From: an uncultured Porphyromonadaceae bacterium
GTDB taxonomy: Bacteria; Bacteroidota; Bacteroidia; Bacteroidales; Muribaculaceae
Assembly (NCBI GenBank): GCA_947174515.1
Contig: CAMWJD010000002.1
Coordinates: 1-33,377 of the forward strand
Reading direction: 5' to 3'
DNA: 33,377 nt
Shown here piece after piece: positions 14,374 to 30,008 of this stretch. The position numbers and the translations under genes were made by a program. The notes under the pieces are model-generated. The model saw only the letters and a list, made by a program, of their open reading frames with translations. It was not told the DNA's origin and ran no database searches. Position 1 is the stretch's first letter. Each line of letters starts with the position of its first letter.

Positions 14374-15327
14374 TCAAAGGTGCGGGTCGATGTCGTTTAT
14401 ATCCACAAGACCATGCAGGATGGCGAAGACCGTCAGTCCGGCTGCCGAATGGATATTGAGCTTCGCCGATATGTTACGTCTATAAGTGGTCACTGTGTTG
14501 ATGGAAATAAAAAGTTTATCCGCAATTTCCTTATTCTGCATTCCGCGCGCCACACAGCGCAATATGTCTTTCTCGCGCTCCGTCATGCTGTCGAGCAGCG
14601 AATCTTCGCCCTTGACCTCATCCACCTCAGGCTTTGCATCCCGCTCCTTGAGCTTCAGCGACCTTTCGAGACGAGACACTGCGGGTAGGAACATACGGTC
14701 TTCAATCTCGCAATGGGAGCACAGGTCGGAGTTGCAATCTATGATATCGTTAAGCGCGGAGACGAGCCACAGATTGTTCATGACATGATAATGACGTATG
14801 AATATATCCTTCAACTCATCGAGTTTCTCAGTCATGCTCGTGTGTGTTACGGAATAATCGGATATGCGGAACTCTTCAGAGACATTCCCTTCAAGAAGAC
14901 GATCGACATAACTGAATATGCTGTCATTCTCATGCTCCATGTGCCGGCGTACCTCGGCGCAGTAATCGTCAAAAAACTTAAGCAGCTGCAGCAGCACATC
15001 ATCGATCGGAAGGGCACTGACAGCAAGAAGAAGCTTGCGGCGTATGGAAGGCAACAGGAACTCAAGGAAATAAGAGTGGGCACTCCTCAGATAGCGCATC
15101 AGGGAGGTCAGCGACACCTCAACAGAATACGGACGACTGTCGATAAGATTGCACACGGCGAGAAACGTGTGCTCATCGACACTATCTTCGGCACAGACCT
15201 CCTTCACGGTCTTATCGCCGAAGCCGAGTGATATTCCGAATCTTGCTGCGACCATCATCAGGTCGCTGTTTTCGTCTATCAGGTCGCGAAGCCTGTCCGC
15301 CCCGGTATATGCTTTTGATTTTTCCAT
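14374..15327 (-). CDS. Hemerythrin-like (ScdA/RIC-like) domain fused to C-terminal LuxR/NarL-type HTH regulator
   Basis: C-terminal LuxR HTH: LDSMTEREKDILRCVARGMQNKEIADKLFISINTVTTYRRNISAKLNIHS. N-terminal His/Glu pattern LRSAHSYFLE..RRHMEHENDSIF..THTSMTEKL..HCEIEDRMFLPAV as in hemerythrin/RIC four-helix bundles. ATG 15327 preferred over TTG 15351. Confidence 0.82.
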   Translation of the reverse strand: MEKSKAYTGADRLRDLIDENSDLMMVAARFGISLGFGDKTVKEVCAEDSVDEHTFLAVCNLIDSRPYSVEVSLTSLMRYLRSAHSYFLEFLLPSIRRKLLLAVSALPIDDVLLQLLKFFDDYCAEVRRHMEHENDSIFSYVDRLLEGNVSEEFRISDYSVTHTSMTEKLDELKDIFIRHYHVMNNLWLVSALNDIIDCNSDLCSHCEIEDRMFLPAVSRLERSLKLKERDAKPEVDEVKGEDSLLDSMTEREKDILRCVARGMQNKEIADKLFISINTVTTYRRNISAKLNIHSAAGLTVFAILHGLVDINDIDPHL

Positions 15328-15348: not shown

Positions 15349-15356
15349 CAAAAATA
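15349..15356 (-). promoter_or_regulatory. Probable -7 element for the hemerythrin-LuxR gene
   Basis: Minus strand TATTTTTG about 21 nt upstream of ATG 15327; no clean -33 match. Confidence 0.4.
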
Positions 15357-15378: not shown

Positions 15379-15396
15379 ATACTCATTTTTGAGTAT
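15379..15396. promoter_or_regulatory. Operator-like dyad ATACTCA-TTTT-TGAGTAT (NarL-like 7-2-7 arrangement)
   Basis: Perfect 7-nt inverted repeat; TACTCAT-TT-TTGAGTA fits TACYYMT-N2-AKRRGTA at all but one position. Confidence 0.55.
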
Positions 15397-15398
15397 TT

Positions 15399-15415
15399 TG
15401 AGATCTATCATCTCA
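15399..15415. promoter_or_regulatory. Operator-like dyad TGAGAT-N5-ATCTCA
   Basis: Perfect 6-nt inverted repeat, 2 bp from the preceding dyad. Confidence 0.4.
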
Positions 15416-15438: not shown

Positions 15439-15461
15439 TTATTTAGAATTAGTCTAAATAA
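15439..15461. promoter_or_regulatory. Operator-like palindrome TTATTTAGA-N5-TCTAAATAA (metalloregulator-box-like)
   Basis: Perfect 9-nt arms, centre ATTAG, ending 6 bp before the -33 TTG. Confidence 0.6.
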
Positions 15462-15467
15462 TGGGTA

Positions 15468-15498
15468 TTGCCAGGCGATTTTTTCGATTGTAATTTTG
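15468..15498 (+). promoter_or_regulatory. Promoter of the porin/imelysin locus
   Basis: TTG (15468-15470) - N20 - TAATTTTG (15491-15498). Confidence 0.6.
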
Positions 15499-15521: not shown

Positions 15522-16877
15522 ATGAAAGCATACTTTTCAGCTATACTTGGAATCGCAGCTATAGCCGCCGTCCAATCGCACGCCACATTTACAGCCGGCG
15601 CTGCGGAATACATGGAAAAACCGCTTGCTGCCACCCAGGCCGACACTGCAGGCTATCACAAATTCCGCTTCGGAGGCTACGGAGAGATGGTGGCATCTTT
15701 CAAAGACTACGGCATCAACCGCTTCGCCGGAACTGCAACAGGCAACACAAGAACGCACCGCAACTCCATATCGATTCCACGATTCGTGCTCGCTTTTGAC
15801 TATAAATTCAATTCTAAATGGATTCTCGGCGCTGAAATAGAGTTCGAGGCAGGAGGCACAGGCACAGCCGTAGAACTTGAGAACAGCGAGAATGGAGAAT
15901 ATGAGACCGAAATAGAGAAGGGAGGGGAAGTCGCCCTCGAGCAATTCCACATAACAAGACTCATAATTCCACAATTCAACGTTAGGGCAGGCCACATGAT
16001 CGTGCCCGTGGGGCTCACAAACGCACACCACGAGCCTATCAATTTCTTCGGGACCGTTAGGCCCCAGGCTGAGACTTCCCTCCTTCCCTCCACCTGGCAT
16101 GAGACCGGCATTCAGTTTTTTGGATCGTTTGGAAAAAGATTTACAAGGTTTGATTATCAGCTCATGATCACTGCCGGCCTCAATGCCAACGGTTTTAACC
16201 GTGATGAATGGATCATCGGAGGAAAACAGGGACTCTTCGAAACCGACAACTTCACATCTCCCGCATACATAGTCCGTATAGATTACAGCGGTGTGCCGGG
16301 ACTCCGCACAGGCGTGTCGTTCTACTATTGCCGTAATGCCGGAGCAAATTCCGACAAAGAGCACACCTACTCCGCAATAGGAAAGATACCCGTGGCAATC
16401 GGCACCTGGGACGCTCAGTACAGAAATAAATTCGTGACAGCCCGCGCCAACCTCACCTATGGTTATATAGGAAACTCTGCTGCTCTCAGCGACGCTAACA
16501 GGTTGCTCTCCAACAAATCACCCTACAGCCGTCTTATCCCGATTGCAAAAAATGCCCTCAGCTATGGAGGGGAAGTCGGCATAAATATAAAATCGCTCAT
16601 TAAGGGGATTTTTCCGACAATATATCCTTTCGCCCGGTATGAATATTACAATCCCCAGTATCGCGGAGAAGGCACCAAGACTACGATGGACCACCGCCTC
16701 GAAGTAAGCCAATGGCAAGCCGGACTCAACTGGTTCGCACTTCCAAATCTCGTGCTAAAGGCAGACTACACCACCCGACAGATCGGCACGGCAAAAGTAT
16801 TCGGCAAAGGTCGCTACAACTCTGAAAACGAATTCTCCATCGGCATAGCCTACATAGGTTGGTTTCTCTCAAAGTAA
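15522..16877 (+). CDS. Outer-membrane porin, phosphate-selective porin O/P-like
   Basis: Signal peptide-like start MKAYFSAILGIAAIAAVQSHA; FRFGGYGEMVASFKDYG; repeated beta-strand segments; terminal aromatic IAYIGWFLSK. Start at internal ATG 15522. Confidence 0.75.
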   Translation: MKAYFSAILGIAAIAAVQSHATFTAGAAEYMEKPLAATQADTAGYHKFRFGGYGEMVASFKDYGINRFAGTATGNTRTHRNSISIPRFVLAFDYKFNSKWILGAEIEFEAGGTGTAVELENSENGEYETEIEKGGEVALEQFHITRLIIPQFNVRAGHMIVPVGLTNAHHEPINFFGTVRPQAETSLLPSTWHETGIQFFGSFGKRFTRFDYQLMITAGLNANGFNRDEWIIGGKQGLFETDNFTSPAYIVRIDYSGVPGLRTGVSFYYCRNAGANSDKEHTYSAIGKIPVAIGTWDAQYRNKFVTARANLTYGYIGNSAALSDANRLLSNKSPYSRLIPIAKNALSYGGEVGINIKSLIKGIFPTIYPFARYEYYNPQYRGEGTKTTMDHRLEVSQWQAGLNWFALPNLVLKADYTTRQIGTAKVFGKGRYNSENEFSIGIAYIGWFLSK

Positions 16878-16890
16878 TTTTGAATTGAAA

Positions 16891-16935
16891 ATTAAGATCT
16901 TAAACTCCCTAAACTTTCTAAACACCATAAACAAA
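16891..16935. repeat. Degenerate 9-bp tandem array (YTAAACNNN), 5 units
   Basis: ATTAAGATC TTAAACTCC CTAAACTTT CTAAACACC ATAAACAAA read in register. Confidence 0.6.
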
Positions 16936-16946
16936 ACAATAAAAAT

Positions 16947-18104
16947 ATGAAAAAATACTTACTCTCATTTTCCGCGCTTTTCTGCGCAAGCGCAATGATG
17001 CTTACCGGATGCTCAAACAATGACGATCCGAAGCAGGAAGACAACAACAATGACAACGCCGCCACCCTCGACTACAACGAAAAGAACGCTGCAAGCTGGA
17101 GCAACTACATGCAGCAGGTGGCACTACTGCTGCAGATGGACTCCAATACCCTCTATGAGGCCTGGACAGTATCATACGACGGCGGAGCTCCCTTCGCCAC
17201 AAGCTTCAAGCAGCACAACGGCGGCGACTATTCAAGCGCACTCAGCTGCGTGGAGCAGATCATCGAAGGCTGCGCCGACATCGCAAACGAGGTAGGTACA
17301 GCCAAGATCGGAGACCCCTATAATCTCTATATATCAGGCGACACACAGGCTGCACTCTACTCTGTTGAATCATGGTATAGCTGGCACTCTCGCGAAGACT
17401 ATTCAAACAATATCCTCTCAATCCGCAATTCCTACTATGGATCGCTTGACGGCACTGTCAGCCCTAAGTCGCTTTCCGCACTTATCGCAACTGAAAATGC
17501 CCAACTCGACTCTGATGTGAAGGCTGCAATTGCCAACGCTTCAAACGCTATCCTCGCTATCCCGCAGCCTTTCCGCAATCACATCAACAGCAGCGAAAGT
17601 CGCTCCGCAATGACTGCATGCGCTGACCTTGAAGAACTGCTCTCAAAAGATCTTAAGAATGCTGTCAGCAAATTGGGCGACGACAGCCGCTATCAAGACA
17701 TAGTAGACAATTATGTGGATGTAGTGGTAGTGCCGACCTACAAGAGCCTGAAAGAACGAAACGAGGCTCTCTATCAGACTGTGCTTAAATTCAAAAACTC
17801 CCCGTCTGACGCCAATTTCGCCTCCGCTTGCAATGCCTGGCTTGAGGCACGCGAGCCTTGGGAGAAGAGCGAGGCATTCCTCTTCGGTCCTGTAGATGCA
17901 CTCGGCCTCGACCCCAATATGGACAGCTGGCCTCTCGACCAGGACAACATCGTGCAGATCCTCAACTCCGGCAACTACGACAATCTTGACTGGAGCGACG
18001 GAGATGACGACGACACCATCGAGGCTGTGCAATCCGTAAGAGGGTTCCACACTCTTGAATTCCTCCTTTTCAAAGACGGACAACCACGCAAAGTAAAGAA
18101 CTGA
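16947..18104 (+). CDS. Imelysin family (peptidase M75-like) lipoprotein
   Basis: Lipobox MLTGCSNN; REPWEKSEAFLFGPVDALGLDPNMDSWPLD and VRGFHTLEFLLF (GxHxxE) imelysin signatures. Confidence 0.9.
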   Translation: MKKYLLSFSALFCASAMMLTGCSNNDDPKQEDNNNDNAATLDYNEKNAASWSNYMQQVALLLQMDSNTLYEAWTVSYDGGAPFATSFKQHNGGDYSSALSCVEQIIEGCADIANEVGTAKIGDPYNLYISGDTQAALYSVESWYSWHSREDYSNNILSIRNSYYGSLDGTVSPKSLSALIATENAQLDSDVKAAIANASNAILAIPQPFRNHINSSESRSAMTACADLEELLSKDLKNAVSKLGDDSRYQDIVDNYVDVVVVPTYKSLKERNEALYQTVLKFKNSPSDANFASACNAWLEAREPWEKSEAFLFGPVDALGLDPNMDSWPLDQDNIVQILNSGNYDNLDWSDGDDDDTIEAVQSVRGFHTLEFLLFKDGQPRKVKN

Positions 18105-18112
18105 AAATATCT

Positions 18113-19549
18113 ATGATAAGTAAATCTCATTCCATCTATATCTGCCTCACGGGTATGGCGGCTTTATTGTCGGCCTGCGAGAGCGACGGACTGGATGTGC
18201 TTGACATTGAGGTTCCTGCCGGCTATGAGCTGTCGGCGGGAACTTCCACGATATTCCTTAACTCGTCGGTTGCATACGATAGCGAGGCGCCTTGGGTGAA
18301 GGGCGACTACCTGACCCGATTCGTGCGCGGCGACAGGCTCTATGACGATGTCCGCACTTCAACCAACGGACAAGGTGGAGGACTCGGACCCGTATATGCC
18401 GGATATTCATGCGGAAGTTGCCACCGAAATGCCGGACGCACACGCCCCGGGGTGTGGAACGACAACGGATCCGGTTCCTACGGATTCTCGGCGATGCTCG
18501 TCTATATCACACGCAAAAACGGCGCGTTTTTCCGCGACTACGGACGCGTGCTCCACGACCAGGCCATCTACGGCGTAAAGCCGGAAGGGAAATTGAAGGT
18601 AGACTGGAACTATCAGCAGTTCTCGTTTCCTGACGGCGACACATATGAGCTGGCATATCCATCATACACCATCACCGACTGGTATGCCGACGAGATCGCT
18701 CCCGAAGACCTCTTCTGCACCGTGCGGGTGCCTCTTCGGCACGTAGGCATGGGACAGCTGATGTCACTCGACCAGCACGAAATAGAACAGCTGGCTGCTA
18801 AAAGCAACTATCCGGAATGGGGCATCAGCGGACGCTGCAACTACATCAGCGAACGCGGTGTGACAAGCCTCGGCATCTCCGGGAACAAGGCTCAGCATGC
18901 CGACCTCACGGTGGAGCTCGGATTCTCAAGCGATATGGGCGTGACCAACAGCCGCTATCCTGAAGAAATCTGCGAGGGTCAGATACAGATGAACCAAGGA
19001 TCAATGATGGGTCTTTCCTACGACCAGCTCGACGTGTCTACGGAAGACATGGAAAACGTTGACCTCTACATGCAGTCGCTCGGTGTTCCCGCCCGTCGCA
19101 ACGTGAACGATCCTGACGTAAAGAGAGGCGAAGCTCTCTTCTTCCAGGCGGGATGCCATCTATGCCATGTGACTACACTACATACTCGCCCACGTGGCTC
19201 CACACTGCTTGCAGGCACCCAACTTCCTTGGCTGGGCAACCAGACTATCCACCCATACAGCGACTTTCTGCTGCACGACATGGGCTCAGAGATAATGGGA
19301 GTCGGGCTCAACGACAACTATGTGTCCGGGCTCGCCCGAGGCAACGAATGGCGCACCACTCCTCTCTGGGGCGTCGGTCTGCAGGAAAAGGTCAACGGAC
19401 ACACATGCTTCCTCCACGACGGCAGAGCACGCAACTTCACCGAAGCCATAATGTGGCACGGAGGGGAAGGGGAAGCCTCGAAAAACAAATTCAAGAACAT
19501 GCCGCGCAAAGACCGCGACGCCATAATAAAATTCCTCCAATCCCTGTAG
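18113..19549 (+). CDS. Di-heme DUF1111-type oxidoreductase/peroxidase-like lipoprotein
   Basis: Lipobox LLSACES; two CxxCH motifs (CGSCH, CHLCH); GQGGGLGPVYAGYSCGSCHRNAGR; TPLWGVGLQEKVNGHTCFLHDGRARNFTEAIMWHGGEGE. Confidence 0.9.
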   Translation: MISKSHSIYICLTGMAALLSACESDGLDVLDIEVPAGYELSAGTSTIFLNSSVAYDSEAPWVKGDYLTRFVRGDRLYDDVRTSTNGQGGGLGPVYAGYSCGSCHRNAGRTRPGVWNDNGSGSYGFSAMLVYITRKNGAFFRDYGRVLHDQAIYGVKPEGKLKVDWNYQQFSFPDGDTYELAYPSYTITDWYADEIAPEDLFCTVRVPLRHVGMGQLMSLDQHEIEQLAAKSNYPEWGISGRCNYISERGVTSLGISGNKAQHADLTVELGFSSDMGVTNSRYPEEICEGQIQMNQGSMMGLSYDQLDVSTEDMENVDLYMQSLGVPARRNVNDPDVKRGEALFFQAGCHLCHVTTLHTRPRGSTLLAGTQLPWLGNQTIHPYSDFLLHDMGSEIMGVGLNDNYVSGLARGNEWRTTPLWGVGLQEKVNGHTCFLHDGRARNFTEAIMWHGGEGEASKNKFKNMPRKDRDAIIKFLQSL

Positions 19550-19578
19550 CCCATAATTTATGATAAATAAAGCTAAAT

Positions 19579-19608
19579 CATGATTTATCATGCCATATCA
19601 TGATAAAT
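19579..19608. repeat. TCATG-containing ~10-bp direct repeats forming a hairpin ATTTATCATG-CCATAT-CATGATAAAT
   Basis: TCATGATTTA TCATGCCATA TCATGATAAA; inverted repeat at 19583-19608. Confidence 0.55.
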
Positions 19609-19637
19609 ACCCTAAAACCCGACAACCAAAAAAACTA

Positions 19638-20852
19638 ATGAAAAAAATAATACTCCCAGCCCTACTCTCCCTATTATTCTCTCCTCTCGTACACGCCCAG
19701 TACGACACCGACACTGAAAACGGCGTCGTGTCGCTTGCCGACCATCGGGGATTCACTTTCACCACCAAGAAAGGGGACTTCCTTTTCAAACCATATCTCT
19801 TAGTGCAGACCACTGCCAACTATAACTATTATGACGACGCAGGTCTTGACCCCGCCTACAATCAGGACAATGTCGCAAATTCCGGATTTGCCATTCCTTA
19901 CGCAGTGCTGGGATTCACGGGCAAGGCATTCAATATCGTCACCTTCAACCTGTCGATCAACGCGGCTGCCTCCGGTGGAGGTCTGCTGCAACAGGCATGG
20001 GCGGATGTCCGCCCCTCCGATGAATTCGGCGTCAAGATCGGTAAGTTCAAGACCCCATTCTCTCACGCCTACCTCACCACTCTCGGCGAGACTCTTTTCC
20101 CCGTGCTCCCGACTTCCCTGACTGCCTCAGTGATACTCCCCTACTCGCTCAACGCCGTGACTCCGCATATAGGCACCGGATTCGACCTCGGTGTGGAAGT
20201 ACACGGCATGATAAAGGAGAAATTCGGCTACCAGATAGGTCTTTTCAACGGCACCGGGGCAAGCGTGAACATAGCGACGAAGACCATCAGCGATGACTGG
20301 CATATCCCCTCGCTCCTCTATGCAGCCAGGCTCACATATCAGCCATTCGGTGTCATGCCGGCATCGCAGGGCGACCCGAGGCGCCTCAACAGCAATAAAA
20401 TGCTCGTAGGCGTTTCCGGATCACTAAATGTAGAAAGCGAGAACGAGAGCACCAACGATTTCCGTCTCGGACTGGAATGGTCGTGGATCAAAAACCGCTG
20501 GTATTTCGGAGCCGAGGTCTACTATATGAACGTTGGCTTCACAAAAAGACAGAAGATCGACACTTCCTACAATTATTTCGGAGGATACGGTCAGGCGGGA
20601 TATTTTATCACAAACAAACTCCAGGGATGTCTGCGTTATGATTTCTTTGAGCGAAACTCAACAAAGAAGGGTGGCTTCCTCAACATGCCTGCCATAGGAG
20701 CCAACTATTTCATCAACAGCATCAACCTTAAGCTTCAGGCGATGTACCAATATACCGGACGCACCGGACACGCACGCCAGATGGACCGCGATGAGGATAA
20801 TCTCGGACTCGCCACAAGCTCAGTGACTATAATGGCACAATATTCCTTCTAA
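19638..20852 (+). CDS. Second porin (phosphate-selective porin O/P-like)
   Basis: Signal peptide MKKIILPALLSLLFSPLVHAQ; FLFKPYLLVQTTANYNYYDD; ADVRPSDEFGVKIGKFKTPFSHAYLTTLGETLFP; terminal ATSSVTIMAQYSF. Confidence 0.78.
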   Translation: MKKIILPALLSLLFSPLVHAQYDTDTENGVVSLADHRGFTFTTKKGDFLFKPYLLVQTTANYNYYDDAGLDPAYNQDNVANSGFAIPYAVLGFTGKAFNIVTFNLSINAAASGGGLLQQAWADVRPSDEFGVKIGKFKTPFSHAYLTTLGETLFPVLPTSLTASVILPYSLNAVTPHIGTGFDLGVEVHGMIKEKFGYQIGLFNGTGASVNIATKTISDDWHIPSLLYAARLTYQPFGVMPASQGDPRRLNSNKMLVGVSGSLNVESENESTNDFRLGLEWSWIKNRWYFGAEVYYMNVGFTKRQKIDTSYNYFGGYGQAGYFITNKLQGCLRYDFFERNSTKKGGFLNMPAIGANYFINSINLKLQAMYQYTGRTGHARQMDRDEDNLGLATSSVTIMAQYSF

Positions 20853-20897
20853 TTCGACAATAAGACTTATTCGACTTATAAGACTTATAAGATTTAA
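20853..20897. repeat. 9-bp tandem array (AAGACTTAT-type), 5 units
   Basis: TTCGACAAT AAGACTTAT TCGACTTAT AAGACTTAT AAGATTTAA. Confidence 0.6.
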
Positions 20898-20910
20898 GTT
20901 ATGAATTTTT

Positions 20911-21615
20911 ATGAAATTCTATAATTACATTATCTTGGCATCTGTCTTTTTAGGTTCTTTCACATCTTGCGACGAGGGGCGCATCTACAATGATGACATC
21001 ATACAAACAGAAGATGGAGGAGCAGCCCACTTTTCAGGCATAGTGACAGGGACTGACACCTGGAGCCAAGGCTACACTCTCGCTTTGGCAGGGTTTGAAG
21101 ACGGCAACGAGTACGCCCTCATCAGCAAGAATATTGAAACGTCGGTAAGTGACGGAAAATGCGACATAACCCTTTCCGGCATTCCCGGAGAGGTGACCAA
21201 AATCGAACTGTGTGCTGTCGATCGCCTGCGTCGACGGGTAGCCACGTTTCTATCTACCGACTATAATCCTAAGGATGCGAACTTGCAGTTAAGTGCAGAA
21301 GTGGTTGATATGTCAATGTCCGCAGCTATTCAGACTGAAATATTCAACACTACATGTGTGCAATGTCATGGCGGCAACGGATATGCCGCAGCCGGTCTGG
21401 ACCTGCTCACCGGCAACAGCTTCAGAAACCTTATATCGGTTCCCTCGAGAAAGATTCCCGGGAAAGACCGTGTAGCACCGGGGAAAAGCGGAGAAAGCGA
21501 ACTTTTTATGATTCTTGACTCTGAAATATCGGCAGACTGGAACTATGATCATTCAGTAGAAGTGGTAAGGCAGGAAAAGCTGGATCTAATCCGCAACTGG
21601 ATCGATAACCTTTAA
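20911..21615 (+). CDS. Mono-heme c-type cytochrome-like lipoprotein
   Basis: Lipobox-like GSFTSCDEG; CVQCHGGNGYAAAGLDLLTGNSFRNLISVPS; C-terminal KLDLIRNWIDNL. Confidence 0.8.
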   Translation: MKFYNYIILASVFLGSFTSCDEGRIYNDDIIQTEDGGAAHFSGIVTGTDTWSQGYTLALAGFEDGNEYALISKNIETSVSDGKCDITLSGIPGEVTKIELCAVDRLRRRVATFLSTDYNPKDANLQLSAEVVDMSMSAAIQTEIFNTTCVQCHGGNGYAAAGLDLLTGNSFRNLISVPSRKIPGKDRVAPGKSGESELFMILDSEISADWNYDHSVEVVRQEKLDLIRNWIDNL

Positions 21616-21633
21616 TCAATGATCAACAATCAA

Positions 21634-21655
21634 CGCAAATCGCAATTAATTTGCG
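21634..21655. promoter_or_regulatory. Dyad CGCAAAT-N8-ATTTGCG overlapping a -33 element
   Basis: Perfect 7-nt arms; TTTG at 21650-21653 is the -33 of the following promoter. Confidence 0.45.
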
Positions 21656-21681
21656 CATCTCTAATAAAATGGTTATTTTTG
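21650..21681 (+). promoter_or_regulatory. Promoter for the Rid-like/CcsBA transcript
   Basis: TTTG (21650-21653) - N20 - TATTTTTG (21674-21681). Confidence 0.6.
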
Positions 21682-21697
21682 TGAAGAATTAAACAAA

Positions 21698-22813
21698 ATG
21701 CAATATATAAATATCAAATATGATGGTGCTGAGGCAGTTGTGGCTCTTTTTGAAAATGGCAGAAAAGAGGCGCATGCCTACATCACACCCACATCCGGCT
21801 CCGGAAATGCCTCTTCCCAGATAATGGCTATTGACACCGCCGTTAAAATGCTGGCAGATGAAACCGGACTCAAACCTGTATTCAAGCGTTATCTGCTTAG
21901 CGACCCATCCAATCAGACTCAGTATCTTCCGCAAGAGGAACCATGTGCCTGCTCTGTGTTAGGACAGTCACCGCTCAACGGCACCAAAGCCTCATTGCTT
22001 GTCCTTCTTGAGGAAGAGGCTGATTTCCGTCCATATGAAGGTGGACTTTGGGAAGACTCCAAAGGTCGTATATGGGTAGGAGACAGCACTGACATTGCGA
22101 CAGGCGACTCTCTGACAATGACTGTCGCTTATCTGGAACGTCTGTCTCTGATGCTGGCGCAAAGAGGTGCCTCCCTGAAAGACAATTGCCTGCGCACATG
22201 GTTTTTCGTACGTGATATCGACAACAACTACAAGGGGGTGGTGCAGGGGCGCAACAGTGTCTTCGCCCGTGAGGGCCTGACCTCAGACACTCATTTCATA
22301 GCATCGACCGGCATCGAGGGACAGGCAGCCGAACCCTCCCGGCTCGTAGCGTTCAATGCTTTTGCCGATACGCGGATCAAAGCGCCTCAGATCAAATACC
22401 TTTACGGCAAGACCCATCTTAATCCCACATATGAATATGGTGTGGCATTCGAACGCGCTACCGCCGTAGACTATGCCGACCGCCGCCACGTCTATGTATC
22501 AGGCACAGCAAGCATCGACAACAAGGGGCAAATTGTAGCCCCCGGCGACATAAAGGCACAGACTGACCGTATGCTTGAGAATATCGGTGTGCTTTTGGCT
22601 GAGGGCGACTGTGGTTGGGAAGATGTCGCCCATATGACGGTCTATATCCGCGATATTGCCGACCATGCACTCATAAGTCGAATTATGAGAGAGCGCTTTC
22701 CTGACATACCTAAATCGATAGTGCTCGCTCCGGTGTGCCGTCCGGGTTGGCTTATAGAAACTGAATGTATGGCTGTAAAGAAGGCTGACAATCGCGATTA
22801 TGAGCCGTACTGA
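21698..22813 (+). CDS. Rid/YjgF-like family protein (two-domain, FkbO/Hyg5-like architecture)
   Basis: HVYVSGTASIDNKGQIVAPGDIKAQTDRMLENIGVLLAEGDCGWEDVAHMTVYIRDIADHALI is Rid-like; extended N-terminal domain. Confidence 0.75.
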   Translation: MQYINIKYDGAEAVVALFENGRKEAHAYITPTSGSGNASSQIMAIDTAVKMLADETGLKPVFKRYLLSDPSNQTQYLPQEEPCACSVLGQSPLNGTKASLLVLLEEEADFRPYEGGLWEDSKGRIWVGDSTDIATGDSLTMTVAYLERLSLMLAQRGASLKDNCLRTWFFVRDIDNNYKGVVQGRNSVFAREGLTSDTHFIASTGIEGQAAEPSRLVAFNAFADTRIKAPQIKYLYGKTHLNPTYEYGVAFERATAVDYADRRHVYVSGTASIDNKGQIVAPGDIKAQTDRMLENIGVLLAEGDCGWEDVAHMTVYIRDIADHALISRIMRERFPDIPKSIVLAPVCRPGWLIETECMAVKKADNRDYEPY

Positions 22814-24716
22814 GATCATAGTATTTGTCTCAGCTGTAGTCATTTCTCTGCTGATAGGATTCTCCTCCCTGTTGCCGGCAGAAATATACTCTTCAGCTAT
22901 ATGGAAAATCCTTTGGATAGCGATAGCCGGGGTTCTTATTGTAGGAATAATAATGGGGCGTCTCTGGCGGAATGGTCCTGCTTTAATAATGCATATATCA
23001 TTTTTATGCATGATCGCAGGGGGCTTCTGCACTTCTCTCTTCTCCCGCCGTGGGACGCTCCATCTTTTCCCTTCCCAGACAGCAGATCATTTCATGACAT
23101 CTGACGGAAAGATGGAGAAACTTCCCTCTGCCGTCACCCTGCTGTCGTTTGCTCCGGAATATTATCCGGGAATGAATTTTCCAAAGGATTTCAAGTCGGA
23201 GCTGAAGACTGCATCGGGCGATACGATGAGGATATCGATGAATCATATCGGGCGTCTTGGTAATTACCGCTTTTATCAGACTTCCTACGATGACCGTGGA
23301 GGCACGCTGCTGACAGTCACACACGATCCTGCCGGCATTGCCGTGACATATACAGGTTTCCTTCTCTTTGCCATCGGAGGGCTTGCATGGCTTCTACGTG
23401 GAAAGATAAGGCAGGCAAAGAAAATATCACCCGTCATTATATTGCTATGCTTCATATGCGTAGGTGCGGACAATTTATATGCTGTTCCGGCTGTCGGCGC
23501 AGATATGGCTGACTCTTTGGCAACCAGGCAGGTGCTTTTCAACGGCACTACAATGTCGTTTGCAGGATTCGCCGACAAGCTTACATATAAACTCACCGGA
23601 CGGGGAAGTGTGTCCGGACTCTCACCGGAAGCTTTCACAGCATCCTTGATAAAATACCGGGAAGAATGGAGCAAGGTTCCCCTCCTTAAGGTGAAAAGCA
23701 AGGCTTTGAGAGAAGCCCTTGAGATCGACGGCAAATATGCATCAGTCTCGGATCTCTACGATGAAACGGGAGAATACATCCCTGCACGATTATACAAAGG
23801 GGGTGCCGGATCTCTCGACAAGGATATCCTCGCACTCGATGAAAAGATGGCTCTGCTCATTGATCTTTGGAACGGGGATCTCTTCACCCCACTCCCGCCG
23901 GGATCAGAAAACCTAAGGTCGGATTTTTCGATTAAATCGGAGATTTTATACCATAAGATCCATCCTGTCAAGATGCTTTTCATTTGCGCGATAATAATTG
24001 TCTCCTTCATTCTATTGTCGCGGATATTCAAAAAAGAGATCCCTGTTTTCCCGTTCATTGCAGTCTTGGGGATATTGGGGATAATAGTGTATGTATGGCT
24101 CTGGTATATATCGGGAAGCGTACCACTGTCAGACACTCCCGACATCATGGAGTTTGTCGGCATATGCATGATCCTATTGTCAGGAGTGGCGGCATGGCGT
24201 AAAGAATCCCGGCTTCTCGTGGCTCTCGGTATGGCAGCCGCCTCCTTTCTGCTGCTCGTGGCGTGGCTGGGGATAAAAGATCCTGTCTTGAGTCCCGTGA
24301 TGCCGGTGCTTGCCTCGCCATGGCTGTCGGTACATGTATCGCTCGTGATGCTGGCATACGCAGTTCTCGGATTCACGCTTCCGGTTGCCGTCACCGCACT
24401 TTCGGTGTCCTCTCAACGGGACAGGCTCGTACATCTTGCCATGTCCCTTCTTGCGCCCGGGATTTTTCTGTTGGGTCTCGGCATCATCACCGGAGCTATG
24501 TGGGCAAATGTGTCATGGGGCCGCTACTGGGCATGGGATCCCAAAGAGACATGGTCGCTCGTCACCTTGATGCTTTATTCCATCCCTCTGCATAAATATT
24601 TCCGGATGCAGCGTCTTCATAAATTCTGCTGCATTTATCTTATCCTCGCTTTCTCATCAATCCTGATGACTTATTTCGGTGTCAATCTCCTCCCGTCACT
24701 CCATGCCTACAACTGA
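22800..24716 (+). CDS. Cytochrome c biogenesis protein, fused ResB-like/CcsA(ResC)-like
   Basis: C-terminal WANVSWGRYWAWDPKETWSLVTLMLYSIPLHKYF (WWD-type CcsA signature), multiple TM segments, ResB-like N-terminal part. Overlaps the preceding stop by 14 nt. Confidence 0.9.
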   Translation: MSRTEIIVFVSAVVISLLIGFSSLLPAEIYSSAIWKILWIAIAGVLIVGIIMGRLWRNGPALIMHISFLCMIAGGFCTSLFSRRGTLHLFPSQTADHFMTSDGKMEKLPSAVTLLSFAPEYYPGMNFPKDFKSELKTASGDTMRISMNHIGRLGNYRFYQTSYDDRGGTLLTVTHDPAGIAVTYTGFLLFAIGGLAWLLRGKIRQAKKISPVIILLCFICVGADNLYAVPAVGADMADSLATRQVLFNGTTMSFAGFADKLTYKLTGRGSVSGLSPEAFTASLIKYREEWSKVPLLKVKSKALREALEIDGKYASVSDLYDETGEYIPARLYKGGAGSLDKDILALDEKMALLIDLWNGDLFTPLPPGSENLRSDFSIKSEILYHKIHPVKMLFICAIIIVSFILLSRIFKKEIPVFPFIAVLGILGIIVYVWLWYISGSVPLSDTPDIMEFVGICMILLSGVAAWRKESRLLVALGMAAASFLLLVAWLGIKDPVLSPVMPVLASPWLSVHVSLVMLAYAVLGFTLPVAVTALSVSSQRDRLVHLAMSLLAPGIFLLGLGIITGAMWANVSWGRYWAWDPKETWSLVTLMLYSIPLHKYFRMQRLHKFCCIYLILAFSSILMTYFGVNLLPSLHAYN

Positions 24717-25263: not shown

Positions 25264-26142
25264 TTATTCCGTCAGATCGGAGGGAAGCACCGGCATCGCT
25301 CCTTTCTTGGTGCATACAAATGCTGATGTGCGCACTGCTATTGAATGTGCCTCTTCCACGCTCTTGCCCTTGAGTATGCTGGCAATGAAGGCTGCAGTGA
25401 ATGAGTCGCCTGCGCCTACAGTGTCAGCCACCTCCACTTTGGGAGTAGGCTGGAACGACACCTTGCCCGGAGTGAACACGTAACTACCGTTGACACCGCA
25501 AGTGAGGATAAGCATCTTAAGGTTGTATTTGCCAAGAAGAATCCAGCACTTGTCCTGAAGATCGATACCCGGATAGCCGAACATACGGCTCACAGTGACC
25601 AGTTCTTCATCGTTGATCTTGAGGATATTGCAACGCTCCATCGAATTTGTGAGGATTTCCTTGTTATAGAAGCCCTGACGGAGGTTGACATCAAACACCA
25701 CAAGATTGTCCTCGCCCTTCGGCATGGCGTAAAGAAACTTATTGATGGTCTCGCGTGACACTACATTGCGCTGTGCCAGCGAGCCGAAACATACAGCCTT
25801 GGTCTTCTTTGCCAGACCCTCCAGAGCCTCGTTGAAAGGAATATTGTCCCATGCAACGTTCTCCTTGATATCATACATCGGGATTCCTGCCTCGTCAAGC
25901 TCCACCTGGACGGTGCCGGTGGGATAAGGCACTACGGAGATAAGCTGGTTGAGACCCTTGGAAGTGAAATTGTCAAGGATTTCCTTGCCGAGATGGTCGT
26001 CGCCGACGGCGCTGACCACACAACTCGGGAGTCCGAACTGCGACACGTGATATGCGAAGTTTGCGGGCGCACCGCCGATTTTCTTTCCTTCGGGGAGGAT
26101 GTCCCATAGCGCCTCGCCCATTCCTACTACAAAGTCTTTCAT
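25264..26142 (-). CDS. PfkB-family carbohydrate kinase, probable fructokinase
   Basis: GEALWDILPEGKKIGGAPANFAYHVSQFG; VADTVGAGDSFTAAFIASIL. Start at MKDFVVGMGE (26142); the upstream extension is a low-complexity translation of the 9-bp repeat. Confidence 0.88.
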   Translation of the reverse strand: MKDFVVGMGEALWDILPEGKKIGGAPANFAYHVSQFGLPSCVVSAVGDDHLGKEILDNFTSKGLNQLISVVPYPTGTVQVELDEAGIPMYDIKENVAWDNIPFNEALEGLAKKTKAVCFGSLAQRNVVSRETINKFLYAMPKGEDNLVVFDVNLRQGFYNKEILTNSMERCNILKINDEELVTVSRMFGYPGIDLQDKCWILLGKYNLKMLILTCGVNGSYVFTPGKVSFQPTPKVEVADTVGAGDSFTAAFIASILKGKSVEEAHSIAVRTSAFVCTKKGAMPVLPSDLTE

Positions 26143-26154
26143 GTTATATATATT

Positions 26155-26225
26155 GTTTAATTGTTTGACAAGTTTAGGATGTTTAGGGCGTTTAAGGGGT
26201 TTAGAAGGGTTAGGAAGTTTCAAAC
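26155..26225. repeat. Degenerate 9-bp tandem array (GTTTAGNNN)
   Basis: GTTTAATT GTTTGACAA GTTTAGGAT GTTTAGGGC GTTTAAGGG GTTTAGAAG GGTTAGGAA GTTTCAAAC. Confidence 0.7.
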
Positions 26226-26260
26226 ATTCAGAGAGGAACGACATTAAGAGGGGTTAAGAC

Positions 26261-26314
26261 TTAACCCAATTAACCCAATTAAACTTCTTAAACCATCTAA
26301 ACCATTTAAACTAA
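26261..26314. repeat. Degenerate 9-bp tandem array (YTAAACNNN), 6 units, inverted relative to 26155-26225
   Basis: TTAACCCAA TTAACCCAA TTAAACTTC TTAAACCAT CTAAACCAT TTAAACTAA. Confidence 0.7.
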
Positions 26315-26319
26315 AACTC

Positions 26320-27498
26320 TTACGCGTTCTTGATCTTAAGCGTGTAGAACGCCAGATAAATCACGCCGAGTGTCATCACAGCCACTGCGCCGGCAACGCC
26401 AACGGCATCCTGTGCGAATCCCATGCAGAGAGGGAACACAGTGCCTCCGAAAAGACCCATGATCATAAGACCGGAAACCTCGTTCTTCTCCTTCGGTTGG
26501 CGGTTGAGAGCCTGTGCGAACACGACGCTGAAAATGTTGGAATTGCCGAAACCGATACAGGCGATAGCAGCAAGCACAAGGAACTGCGAGGATGACACGA
26601 AGAGTCCTATCATACCGAGCATCATGCAGAAGACACTGAATGCGAAGAAAGACTTGGCCGACATCTTGGCAAGGATGAAGGAGCCGAGCAGACAGCCGCC
26701 TGTGCGGAAATAGAAGTAGATCTGAGTACCTATTACTGCGTCTTCCACGCTGAGTCCGAACTTTTCTGTCAGAATCTGTGGAGCGAATGTATTGGTGCCT
26801 ACGTCGATACCCACATGACACATTATACCGAGAAAGCAGAGAAGCACGAAAGGTATGCGGAGCAATACAACACATTCCTTGAAGCCTGTCACCTTGTCAG
26901 GTTGTTCCTCGCTGATTGGAGTGGCACCAAGTGCAGCGATAGACAGGAGGCAGACAGCGGCAAAGATGGGGAAGACAACCCTCCATTCAAGTCCGAAAGT
27001 CGGCATCAGCATTGCGGCGCCCCACGCCATGAGATATGGAGCGAGAAGGGATGCAAGAGCCTTCACAAACTGACCGAAAGTAAGGGTCGAGGCAAGACGA
27101 TCAGGATTGATGAGACCCGAAACGAGGGGATTGAGCGATGTCTGCATCACGGCATTGCCTATACCCAGCAGCGAGAATGCTGCCAGCATCGTATAGTAGC
27201 CGGTATGGAACATCGGGATCACGAGTGAAACGAGTGTAAGCAGAAGCGACAGAAGAACGGTCTTCTTACGCCCTATCTTATTCATCAGTATCCCCGTAGG
27301 GACAGAGAAGATGAGAAACCAAAAGAATACAAGGGAGGGGATGAATCCTGCCTGAGCGCCGGAGAGATTAAGGTCGACCTTTACAAAATTAGTGGCTGAG
27401 CCAACGAGGTCTACGAAACCCATCGAGAAGAAGCAGAGCATTACCGGGATGATCTGCATCATAAATGATTTGCGGTCGGTTGCGACTGATTGTGCCAT
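26320..27498 (-). CDS. MFS sugar transporter (FucP/GlcP-like)
   Basis: About 12 hydrophobic segments; MGFVDLVGSATNFVKVDLNLSGAQAGFIPSLVFFWFLIFSVPTGILMNKIGRKKTVL; VQALNR-like C-terminal half with LMIMGLFGGTVFPLCMGFAQD. Confidence 0.87.
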   Translation of the reverse strand: MAQSVATDRKSFMMQIIPVMLCFFSMGFVDLVGSATNFVKVDLNLSGAQAGFIPSLVFFWFLIFSVPTGILMNKIGRKKTVLLSLLLTLVSLVIPMFHTGYYTMLAAFSLLGIGNAVMQTSLNPLVSGLINPDRLASTLTFGQFVKALASLLAPYLMAWGAAMLMPTFGLEWRVVFPIFAAVCLLSIAALGATPISEEQPDKVTGFKECVVLLRIPFVLLCFLGIMCHVGIDVGTNTFAPQILTEKFGLSVEDAVIGTQIYFYFRTGGCLLGSFILAKMSAKSFFAFSVFCMMLGMIGLFVSSSQFLVLAAIACIGFGNSNIFSVVFAQALNRQPKEKNEVSGLMIMGLFGGTVFPLCMGFAQDAVGVAGAVAVMTLGVIYLAFYTLKIKNA

Positions 27499-27505
27499 AT
27501 CGGAT

Positions 27506-29350
27506 TTATTTTGTTTTCAGTGAATATATCTTGAGATTGCTGATTTTAGACTTTCCTCCTGCAGAAGAAACGGAAAGAGTGCTGTAAGGTTCAACAGGGA
27601 AGACAAGATTTGTCATCACAAACTGTCCGTCGTTGCCGAATACCTCGATACTTGACTTGTCGACGAATATGCGAAGCGAGATTCTGCCATTGTTCTCAAA
27701 TGTCGGGGAAACTGTCACTGCAGGGAAGTTCTCGCTGAAATCTACGATTCCACTCACCTTTCGGTCAAACGACAAGGTATGTTTGTCTGAATCATATATC
27801 ATATCCACCTTGTTGCCGGCTTTATTGGAAAGAGTCAGTGTGACAGCATCTTTCCCGGCTGCATCGATGTCGAGAAGTATCTCGCATATTCCGCTGTTTG
27901 CAGCAGGGAGTGCAAAGCTGACGGGATTCTTGCCGGCCTTTACGCTTCCCTTGCTCAGTGTGAGTTTGCCTCTAAGTGCCGTAAGTTCGGGAGAAGGGGC
28001 GCTTGATGCATAAATCTGTCCGTCCGGCCCCTTGAAGAGTCCGATCTCGCGTGGCAGTGTGTTCGCACTGCGGAACTGCCGGGTCGGCACATCGGCGGCA
28101 TACTGCCAGTTGCTCATCCAGCCGATTGAGGTGCGCCGTCCGTCGGGCGCGTCGCTCCAGCTTACGAGCGCATAGTTGTCCTTGCCGTAGTCAAGCCATT
28201 TGGTAGGCACATTGCCCCGGGCATCGGTGTCTGCCTTGAAGGTCTTTCCGTCCCAGTCGCCTGTGAAATACTGGATTGCGGAGCCTCCGAACGGACCGCC
28301 GGGATTGATGTTGCAGATAAGCACCCATTTCTTCTCATTGGTTCCTTCTACCGGGAGCTGGAACAGGTCAGGGCACTCCCACACTCCGTCCTGACATCCC
28401 TCCCCTTTCCCGAAGCCGCTCTGCAGCGTCCAGTTCTTCAGGTCGGGGGAAGTGAAGAAAAGCATCTCGTGGTCGAGGGCATGGGCAAGCACAAGGTTCC
28501 ACTCCCCGGTATCCTTGTTCCAGAACATATTCGGATCGCGAGCCTCGCTTTCGAGGGTAAGAATGGGATTGCCGTCATATTTCGTGAAAGTCATGCCGTT
28601 GTCGCTGCTGTGCGCGAGGCTCTGCATCTGGCTTGTGCCGGCAGAGGTGTAGAGCGCGATCACCTCATCATTGCCAAAACCGGCTGTGCCCTCATGGTCA
28701 ATGACACAGCTTCCGCTGAATATTGAGCCGAGTCCGTCGGGGCGGATGGCGATTGGCTCATGCTGCCAGTTGACGAGATCTTTTGATGTGGAATGAGCCC
28801 ATGTCATGTTCTGCCACTTTGATCCGTAGGGATTGTACTGGTAATAGAGATGCCATACTCCATCTTTATAGAACATGCCGTTAGGGTCGTTCATCCAGCC
28901 ATAGAGTGGAGTGTGGTGGAATGCAGGACGGTATTGCTGCTCATTATCCTGAATGTCGAGGGTATTGGCGAGGGTGATCCCTTTCCAGCAGGCGTCTTCC
29001 TTAGCCTCGCGCACTGAACTGCGTCCCTGAGGTGTCACCACATCGAGAGTCACTTTTTTCCCCTTATATGGAGAAAGGTCGAATGGAACGAGATAATCGG
29101 TCTTAGACTTTGCAAGACGCACATAGATTGTCTCTGCGATCTTTCCGTCTACAAGCACATTGATGCGGGCGTCGTCGATATTTTCCTGTACGGGAAGCAT
29201 CAGATACTGATCGCCTCCCGCCACCCTTACGAGAGTGTTGTTGACTCCGAGATGGTCTATCTCAAGTCCGTCGGCAGCCGTGGCAGGAATCGCTGTAGCC
29301 ATCATTCCTATAGCTGTCATTGCAGTGATGAATCTTTTGATATCAGTCAT
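27506..29350 (-). CDS. Secreted GH32 fructan hydrolase (levanase/inulinase-like) with N-terminal DUF4980-like domain
   Basis: YGWMNDPNGMFYKDGVWHLYYQYNPYGSKWQNMTWAHSTSKDLVNWQHEPIAI; SGSCVID; EARDPNMFW; ECPDLF. Start at MTDIKRFITAMTAIG (29350). Confidence 0.95.
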   Translation of the reverse strand: MTDIKRFITAMTAIGMMATAIPATAADGLEIDHLGVNNTLVRVAGGDQYLMLPVQENIDDARINVLVDGKIAETIYVRLAKSKTDYLVPFDLSPYKGKKVTLDVVTPQGRSSVREAKEDACWKGITLANTLDIQDNEQQYRPAFHHTPLYGWMNDPNGMFYKDGVWHLYYQYNPYGSKWQNMTWAHSTSKDLVNWQHEPIAIRPDGLGSIFSGSCVIDHEGTAGFGNDEVIALYTSAGTSQMQSLAHSSDNGMTFTKYDGNPILTLESEARDPNMFWNKDTGEWNLVLAHALDHEMLFFTSPDLKNWTLQSGFGKGEGCQDGVWECPDLFQLPVEGTNEKKWVLICNINPGGPFGGSAIQYFTGDWDGKTFKADTDARGNVPTKWLDYGKDNYALVSWSDAPDGRRTSIGWMSNWQYAADVPTRQFRSANTLPREIGLFKGPDGQIYASSAPSPELTALRGKLTLSKGSVKAGKNPVSFALPAANSGICEILLDIDAAGKDAVTLTLSNKAGNKVDMIYDSDKHTLSFDRKVSGIVDFSENFPAVTVSPTFENNGRISLRIFVDKSSIEVFGNDGQFVMTNLVFPVEPYSTLSVSSAGGKSKISNLKIYSLKTK

Positions 29351-29381
29351 ATATGTAGTTTTGAGTTTTCCTTTTTGTTTA

Positions 29382-29422
29382 GTATCGGGAAGCGATCCTT
29401 TCAAGGGTCTGCCTCCCGATAC
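29382..29422 (-). other. Structured 5' leader hairpin upstream of GH32
   Basis: GTATCGGGA...TCCCGATAC outer stem with nested GATCCTT/AAGGGTC pairing. Confidence 0.55.
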
Positions 29423-29426
29423 AATC

Positions 29427-29476
29427 TTCGAACCTAACAATCTTCCTACTTAAGGATTTTCCTTATTCGAACCTAA
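29427..29476. repeat. 11-bp direct repeat TTCGAACCTAA flanking dyad TAAGGA-TTT-TCCTTA
   Basis: Copies at 29427-29437 and 29466-29476; dyad at 29451-29465. Confidence 0.6.
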
Positions 29477-29567
29477 TAAACCTAAATAATAATAAACCTA
29501 AACCTTTGTTTTCTCTCCATTCAGAAAAGATTCTCCGTTATTTGACAGTGATATCTTTTCGACACTG

Positions 29568-29598
29568 CAAAACTACTATATTTATCGGAAACAGTCAA
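29568..29598 (-). promoter_or_regulatory. Promoter for the GH32 gene/operon
   Basis: Minus strand TTG (29598-29596) - N20 - TAGTTTTG (29575-29568). Confidence 0.6.
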
Positions 29599-29674
29599 TT
29601 AAATTTTATGCATCATATGTAAAATTTGTTGCATCCCCCGTTTTTTTATACTTTCCACACTGTTTTTTATATAA

Positions 29675-29860
29675 GGGAGGGGATTAATCACCAACTATGG
29701 ACTGACCACCGGCGAAATCAACTATGTGTGTCTGTATGCCATCGGACTGAGGGGCAAGGAAGTGGGCAAGCAGCGCAACCGCCGCACCGAGATCATCATC
29801 ACCCCGAAGCTCGACGATTTCATGGACCTAATCGACCACGCCCCCGAATCCAACGACTGA
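29675..29860 (+). pseudogene. Chimeric gene remnant: HTH-type tail joined in frame to OmpA-like C-terminal tail, no start codon
   Basis: Frame reads ..GLITNYGLTTGEINYVCLYAIGLRGKEVG|KQRNRRTEIIITPKLDDFMDLIDHAPESND*; in-frame TAA at 29672-29674 and no upstream ATG. Confidence 0.6.
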
Positions 29861-29881
29861 CCCTCAACGATGAATATACGG

Positions 29882-29917
29882 TCCTCCGTCTCCCCCGAGA
29901 CGGAGGATTTTGTTTTT
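29882..29917 (+). terminator. Intrinsic terminator after the gene remnant
   Basis: TCCTCCGTCTC-CCCC-GAGACGGAGGA followed by TTTTGTTTTT. Confidence 0.85.
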
Positions 29918-29930
29918 GGTTCATTTTTTC

Positions 29931-29960
29931 TTTGATTTTCGAAGATTATTGCTAACTTTG
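29931..29960 (+). promoter_or_regulatory. Promoter for the hybrid two-component regulator
   Basis: TTTG (29931-29934) - N18 - TAACTTTG (29953-29960). Confidence 0.5.
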
Positions 29961-30008
29961 CAAGCGCAACCTGACATTTTTTTCGAACAACCTACAATCT
30001 CACAGTTA

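Follow-up and report, generated by a model that had tools for sequence, protein, structure and literature searches.

The closest described relatives of the regulator analysed here are hemerythrin-regulator systems of Bacteroidales whose expression follows iron. In Porphyromonas gingivalis (PG1236-PG1237, hemerythrin-CdhR) and in Bacteroides thetaiotaomicron (BT_0519-0520) the hemerythrin and the regulator are encoded as a split pair, and passages of a 2023 paper report that these genes are induced, along with their suspected targets, when iron is low (PMC10434189). The same passages describe a fused hemerythrin-regulator in P. intermedia, PIN17_RS10465, so the fused architecture is already known from that species, and they delineate a shared low-iron stimulon comprising fldA/DUF2023, hmu and TetR-ABC loci. 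They also report that BT2473-82, which encodes CcsA, a porin, a thiol oxidoreductase, an M75 protein and an HTH regulator, is increased 63- to 324-fold at low iron, and they name iron as the master signal in the response of Bacteroidales to gut inflammation. The word 'motif' is absent from the paper and no operator is described in these passages, and we found no text in the open-access literature that joins hemerythrin, LuxR and Bacteroid-.

CdhR controls hmu haem uptake, for which it has been termed an activator (PMC10101095); this conflicts with a description of PG1237 as an hmu repressor (PMC2671838). Expression of cdhR and hmu drops together under microaerophilic conditions (PMC10101095), and O2 may therefore act directly on the system. 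The title of a reference listed in the same article states that SigCH regulates cdhR in P. gingivalis. Among eukaryotes, the hemerythrin-like di-iron domains of FBXL5 in animals and BRUTUS in plants report iron and control its uptake, which provides a precedent for iron sensing by such centres, and the plant sensors react also with O2 and H2O2 (PMC12022348).

We analysed a window of 33,377 nt, the whole stretch of DNA considered here, from an uncultured member of the Muribaculaceae (contig CAMWJD010000002.1). The gene of interest (14374-15327, minus strand) encodes a protein of 317 aa whose start codon is the ATG at 15327; the TTG at 15351 is an alternative start for this ORF, but it lies upstream of the predicted transcription start. 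Pfam identifies a Hemerythrin domain (PF01814; residues 79-216; 8e-8, 33.2 bits against a cut-off of 25.3) and a GerE domain (residues 246-302; 1e-19, 70 bits against 23.5). A Pfam scan of the protein gives no further match over cut-off, and in particular no receiver domain with a phospho-acceptor Asp. The AF2 model (mean pLDDT 86) comprises a small helical N-terminal domain, a four-helix bundle, a linker and then the HTH. We assign these parts as an ScdA_N-like N-terminus (about residues 1-72), a RIC-like hemerythrin four-helix bundle (about residues 73-230; long helices 73-105, 110-145, 162-179 and 186-230), a flexible or disordered linker (residues 232-241) and a LuxR/NarL HTH (residues 242-304).

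When the model was compared with the PDB by Foldseek, the N-terminal part matched Escherichia coli YtfE on top and Staphylococcus aureus ScdA next, the ScdA superposition giving a TMt of 0.76-0.78 with an rmsd of about 3 Å. The C-terminal part matched the DNA-binding domains of LiaR-type (LuxR) proteins with a TMt of 0.92 and an rmsd of 1.0 Å. With the whole model the E-values are modest (3e-3 at best), for which a difference in the orientation of the two domains is the probable reason. An initial sequence-only reading had proposed a one-component regulator in which a RIC/hemerythrin-like sensor is joined to a LuxR HTH with no receiver domain, and had named an AlphaFold prediction as a check. 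Both the Pfam matches and the predicted folds agree with that proposal.

The presumptive metal ligands follow the order H84, H129xxxE133, H162 and H205xxxE209. In an alignment of 117 homologues, H84, H129, E133, H205 and E209 are present in all 117 and H162 in 111, such that the complete six-ligand set is found in 111/117; retention on this scale is not attributable to chance. Among the His/Glu residues that had been picked out in the sequence-only reading, H132 within 'HMEHEN' is not conserved. With four His and two Glu, the set is that of RIC proteins, and this composition rules out a classical O2-binding hemerythrin with five His. The remaining six homologues, all fused proteins (L144, L146, L149, L150, L151 and L153), carry Asp or Asn in place of H162, and most of them lie close to an imelysin/DHOR operon.

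RIC proteins also carry a DfCCgG cysteine motif (PMC9268430). This ScdA_N motif is absent from the window protein, where the aligned position reads LGFGD (positions 34-37 were counted over the 117 sequences), as expected from the earlier description of an ScdA_N-like N-terminus that lacks a cysteine pair. The window protein also scores 32 bits against the NCBIfam RIC equivalog TIGR03652, far under its cut-off of 204.7. An NO-detoxifying RIC enzyme was rejected on account of the missing Cys pair and this score. Despite the loss of the RIC pair, all 117 homologues retain one cysteine of the ScdA_N-like part, Cys45, which may have a role in metal binding or redox chemistry. A profile built from the split homologues matches YtfE at 1.4e-4 in an alignment that spans the ligand region. 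The protein therefore shares with RIC/YtfE/ScdA its fold, its ScdA_N-like N-terminus and the H/HxxxE/H/HxxxE ligands, but differs from them in lacking DfCCgG, in falling under the RIC cut-off and in being fused to an HTH; by this contrast it is a regulator and not a repair enzyme.

Homologues of the regulator were identified in 265/384 good Bacteroidales genomes, the closest sequences being from Muribaculaceae at 91% identity. They are rare beyond this order: a phylum-wide draw gave a match in only 10/297 genomes, seven of which are not Bacteroidales. The hemerythrin-LuxR loci comprise 78 fused and 41 split cases. In the split form a hemerythrin protein of ~235 aa is followed by an adjacent gene for a LuxR protein of ~200 aa, whose N-terminal half resembles a receiver in a profile comparison (VraR) but, in the alignment, lacks the acidic pair that is conserved where strand 1 ends. 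On a tree of the 117 hemerythrin domains, changes between the fused and split states number at least two and parsimoniously six. That the two genes have fused repeatedly argues strongly that the hemerythrin domain acts on the HTH part.

The regulator gene is divergent from an operon on the plus strand that extends from 15522 to 24716. Its first gene encodes a Porin_O_P outer-membrane porin (15522-16877) and is followed by genes for an imelysin (peptidase M75, 16947-18104), a di-haem oxidoreductase (DHOR, also termed 'thiol oxidoreductase', 18113-19549) and a second Porin_O_P porin (19590-20852), and then by those for a small protein that has one CxxCH haem-binding motif (CVQCH) and no Pfam match (20911-21615), a RidA-like (Ribonuc_L-PSP) protein (21698-22813) and a CcsBA-type cytochrome c assembly protein (ResB plus Cytochrom_C_asm, 22800-24716). 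The gene types of this operon are the same as those reported in passages on BT2473-82 (PMC10434189). The imelysin, DHOR, CxxCH protein and CcsBA (16947-24716) form a conserved set, which suggests a cytochrome-dependent outer-membrane or periplasmic system for iron or haem uptake. Farther along the window (25264-32807), a sugar kinase, an MFS transporter, a GH32-like hydrolase and a hybrid two-component regulator were recognized by eye as a fructan-type utilisation locus.

Gene neighbourhoods were counted at 34 split loci and at 69 fused loci whose upstream sequence spans 4 kb or more. An imelysin/DHOR-type operon adjoins 21/69 fused and 3/34 split loci, hmu/PepSY haem-uptake genes adjoin 8/69 and 0/34, respectively, and FeoB/FeoAB adjoins four further fused loci. 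Neighbour labels confirmed by Pfam include HmuY, CobN/HmuS, TonB receptor and PepSY_TM. At roughly half of the fused loci no neighbouring gene is recognised as iron-related, which counts against a role in iron control.

Counting words de novo in the regions that precede the regulators reveals a candidate operator. The leading 8-mer upstream of fused regulators is AATACCTA (20 occurrences versus 0.5 expected), and the same word leads upstream of split regulators (14 versus 0.5); the other leading words are promoter -7 boxes. The half-site is thus common to fused and split regulator promoters, and it forms part of the palindrome ATACYYA-N4-TRRGTAT. NarL half-sites follow the consensus TACYYM in a 7-2-7 arrangement, and the candidate operator resembles them in both respects. 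Matches of at least 12/14 are present in 39/74 fused upstream regions (0.8 in shuffles) and in 18/39 split upstream regions (0.55 in shuffles).

The position of the operator relative to the promoter is also fixed. It lies exactly 22 nt upstream of a Bacteroides-type -7 box (TAnnTTTG) at the promoters of 36 fused and 10 split regulators and at 21 divergent promoters, whereas each set, when shuffled, contains about two operator-box pairs across all 61 possible spacings. In 54/68 sites the operator is followed directly by TTG, the -33 element. This fixed phase, abutting the -33 element and 22 nt upstream of the -7 box, corresponds to a class II activator position, and LuxR/NarL-type regulators that occupy such positions are usually activators.

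Two predicted operators lie between the divergent genes of the window. Operator 1 (15379-15396) is the perfect palindrome ATACTCA-AAAA-TGAGTAT and is located 22 nt from the predicted regulator -7 box TATTTTTG, which is of the TAnnTTTG type (15349-15356, minus strand). It is the sole copy without mismatch in the 2.29 Mb assembly, which is 79% complete, and a perfect match occurred in none of 100 shuffles of the window. Operator 2 (15451-15468, plus strand), AGTCTAA-ATAA-TGGGTAT, is degenerate; it is followed by TG of the -33 TTG and lies 22 nt from TAATTTTG, the predicted -7 box of the divergent operon promoter (15491-15498, plus strand). Its three mismatches count against control of the operon by the regulator. 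The sequence-only reading had pointed to dyads at 15379-15415; the one at 15379-15396 is real and conserved, but the second, GAGAT..ATCTC at about 15400-15415, was rejected as an operator since, among the deduplicated upstream regions, it was found only in that of the window.

In the genome that carries the window, the combined operator-promoter pattern with up to three mismatches is found at seven sites (none in the control). The palindrome alone with up to two mismatches is not enriched in this genome (83 versus 97 in the control), and a genome-wide regulon for the window regulator was rejected on this ground. This lack of enrichment implies that the window copy is probably a local regulator with a single target and not a global one. 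Another site in the same genome with operator, TTG and -7 box and three mismatches (G000:C6:902-949, locus L260) is a possible second target. A divergent clade of fused proteins (L163, L167, L170, L174 and L175) does not have the common operator upstream, and its DNA specificity may differ.

Across the family, 20 Bacteroidales genomes that encode the regulator contain 84 combined sites (7 in the control) and 20 genomes without it contain 7 (16 in the control); the genomes with the regulator were taken from high-scoring rows and the counts ignore phylogeny. In two Bacteroides genomes, perfect operators precede a porin-imelysin-DHOR operon that has no adjacent regulator, and in both the regulator found is a split one located elsewhere. 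The best sites in B. fragilis precede a TonB receptor with HmuY and PepSY, a TonB receptor with PepSY, and further TonB receptors. Sites in other genomes precede FeoAB, flavodoxin with DUF2023, TetR-methyltransferase-ABC loci and hemE-hemA, some of these being assigned by eye. A target in B. caecigallinarum that had been taken for NrdD is a pyruvate formate-lyase-like protein according to Pfam.

To list a family regulon, sites with at most one mismatch in the 20 genomes with the regulator were collected and the first downstream gene was chosen mechanically. At 34 sites there is a first gene within 600 bp, and in 18 cases it belongs to the listed iron-type, regulator or porin classes: TonB receptors (six), TetR (three), PepSY_TM (two), FeoAB (two), flavodoxin (one), the hemerythrin regulator itself (two) and porins (two, read from sequence as the imelysin-operon type and having no Pfam match). 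Cation-efflux proteins account for three more of the 34; two of these and one TetR were assigned by eye from near-identical N-termini. The targets are mostly TonB receptors, hmu, FeoAB, flavodoxin and TetR loci, in agreement with the published iron stimulon. Operators also occur before genes unexpected in an iron regulon (L347, L349, L351, L270, L226 and L352), namely cation-efflux genes in three genomes, enolase in two and a histidine-phosphatase-family/phosphoglycerate mutase-like gene in one.

Collectively, gene neighbourhood, operator, regulon and published transcriptomics favour iron starvation over the other signals that had been suggested for this protein, O2 and NO. We conclude that the window gene probably encodes a one-component transcription activator that responds to iron starvation and is switched by occupancy of its di-iron site. 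The RIC-like bundle would hold the di-iron site and a dimer of the LuxR/NarL HTH would bind ATACYYA-N4-TRRGTAT. When iron is plentiful, the loaded bundle would keep the regulator in a non-activating form. When iron is scarce, the site would empty or change state, and the regulator, presumably as the apo-protein, would activate its own promoter and the divergent porin-imelysin-di-haem-oxidoreductase operon. The direction proposed, active when iron is scarce, derives from published induction in relatives and from the activator geometry; both the regulon and activation by this regulator are inferred from sequence.

Alternatively, a permanently loaded di-iron site could sense O2, H2O2 or NO and block iron uptake under oxidative or nitrosative conditions. 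The RIC-type ligand set, a potentially redox-active Cys45 in 117/117 homologues, the lower expression of cdhR and hmu under microaerophilic conditions (PMC10101095) and the reactivity of plant hemerythrin iron sensors with O2 and H2O2 (PMC12022348) are consistent with such a function. We consider it unlikely, as the RIC Cys-Cys motif (PMC9268430) is gone, the targets are genes for iron acquisition or sparing (flavodoxin, FeoAB, hmu) rather than typical NO or O2 defence, and passages of PMC10434189 report a response of regulators and targets to iron depletion. A second possibility is that the hemerythrin part survives only as a structural or dimerisation element of a constitutive activator controlled by its level, with the iron signal arriving via Fur, an ECF sigma factor or TetR. 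The regulator genes are themselves iron-regulated according to the same source, SigCH is named as a regulator of cdhR in a reference title (PMC10101095), and an operator at the regulator's own promoter means that positive feedback alone could strengthen a signal that originates elsewhere. Highly diverged members keep the six metal ligands almost without exception, which makes this improbable, and the recurrent hemerythrin-HTH fusion, which replaces a degenerate receiver, argues for a working sensor.

Two further alternatives concern the operator. Its location abutting the -33 element would also suit a repressor site at which the iron-loaded protein blocks promoters in the manner of Fur. This appears no more probable than a remnant sensor, because the 22-nt spacing is fixed at 67 promoters and places the operator outside the -7 box in the class II activator position, from which regulators of the LuxR/NarL type usually activate. 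Published designations for the P. gingivalis protein fall on both sides, PG1237 having been termed a repressor of hmu (PMC2671838) and CdhR an activator (PMC10101095). Least likely of all, the operator could be the site of a different transcription factor with the same iron regulon, the hemerythrin regulator being merely adjacent. The link between operator and regulator is indeed a correlation, but the 7-2-7 half-sites of the NarL form (TACYYM) are those expected for the HTH of the window protein, and the site is present at the promoters of both regulator forms and is found in genomes together with the regulator.

The window protein shares features with further known systems. Like the CdhR system, it couples a hemerythrin domain to a LuxR-type HTH, and passages of PMC10434189 report low-iron induction of that system and fusion in the P. 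intermedia protein; homology to these named proteins rests on architecture and on the same passages. CdhR-type split members in our survey have the same operator as fused ones, but their HTH protein is separate and carries a degenerate receiver, which the window protein lacks. With NarL/LuxR response regulators (VraR, LiaR and NarL) it has in common the HTH (~1 Å to LiaR) and the TACYYM 7-2-7 site, but it has no receiver or phosphorylation site and its input domain is hemerythrin-like. FBXL5 and BRUTUS use a hemerythrin-like di-iron domain to report cellular iron (PMC12022348), but they are ubiquitin ligases and not transcription factors, and homology is proposed for the hemerythrin fold only.

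The novel elements of this analysis are the operator and its constant geometry at promoters, the predicted regulon, the recurrence of fusion and the reading of the window protein as a local switch with a single target. Iron sensing in Bacteroidales is largely unexplained, and the hemerythrin-LuxR family is the best candidate for its iron-starvation regulator. The wider proposal that these proteins are Fur-independent master iron regulators of Bacteroidales, with di-iron occupancy directly gating an activator, split members acting globally and repeated fusion having given rise to dedicated local copies such as that of the window, seems to us about evenly poised. The proposed operator and regulon make the question directly testable. 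If the proposal is true, hemerythrin iron sensing in a transcription factor would constitute a new class of bacterial metalloregulator, and would represent a bacterial counterpart of eukaryotic FBXL5 and BRUTUS with a definable operator and regulon.
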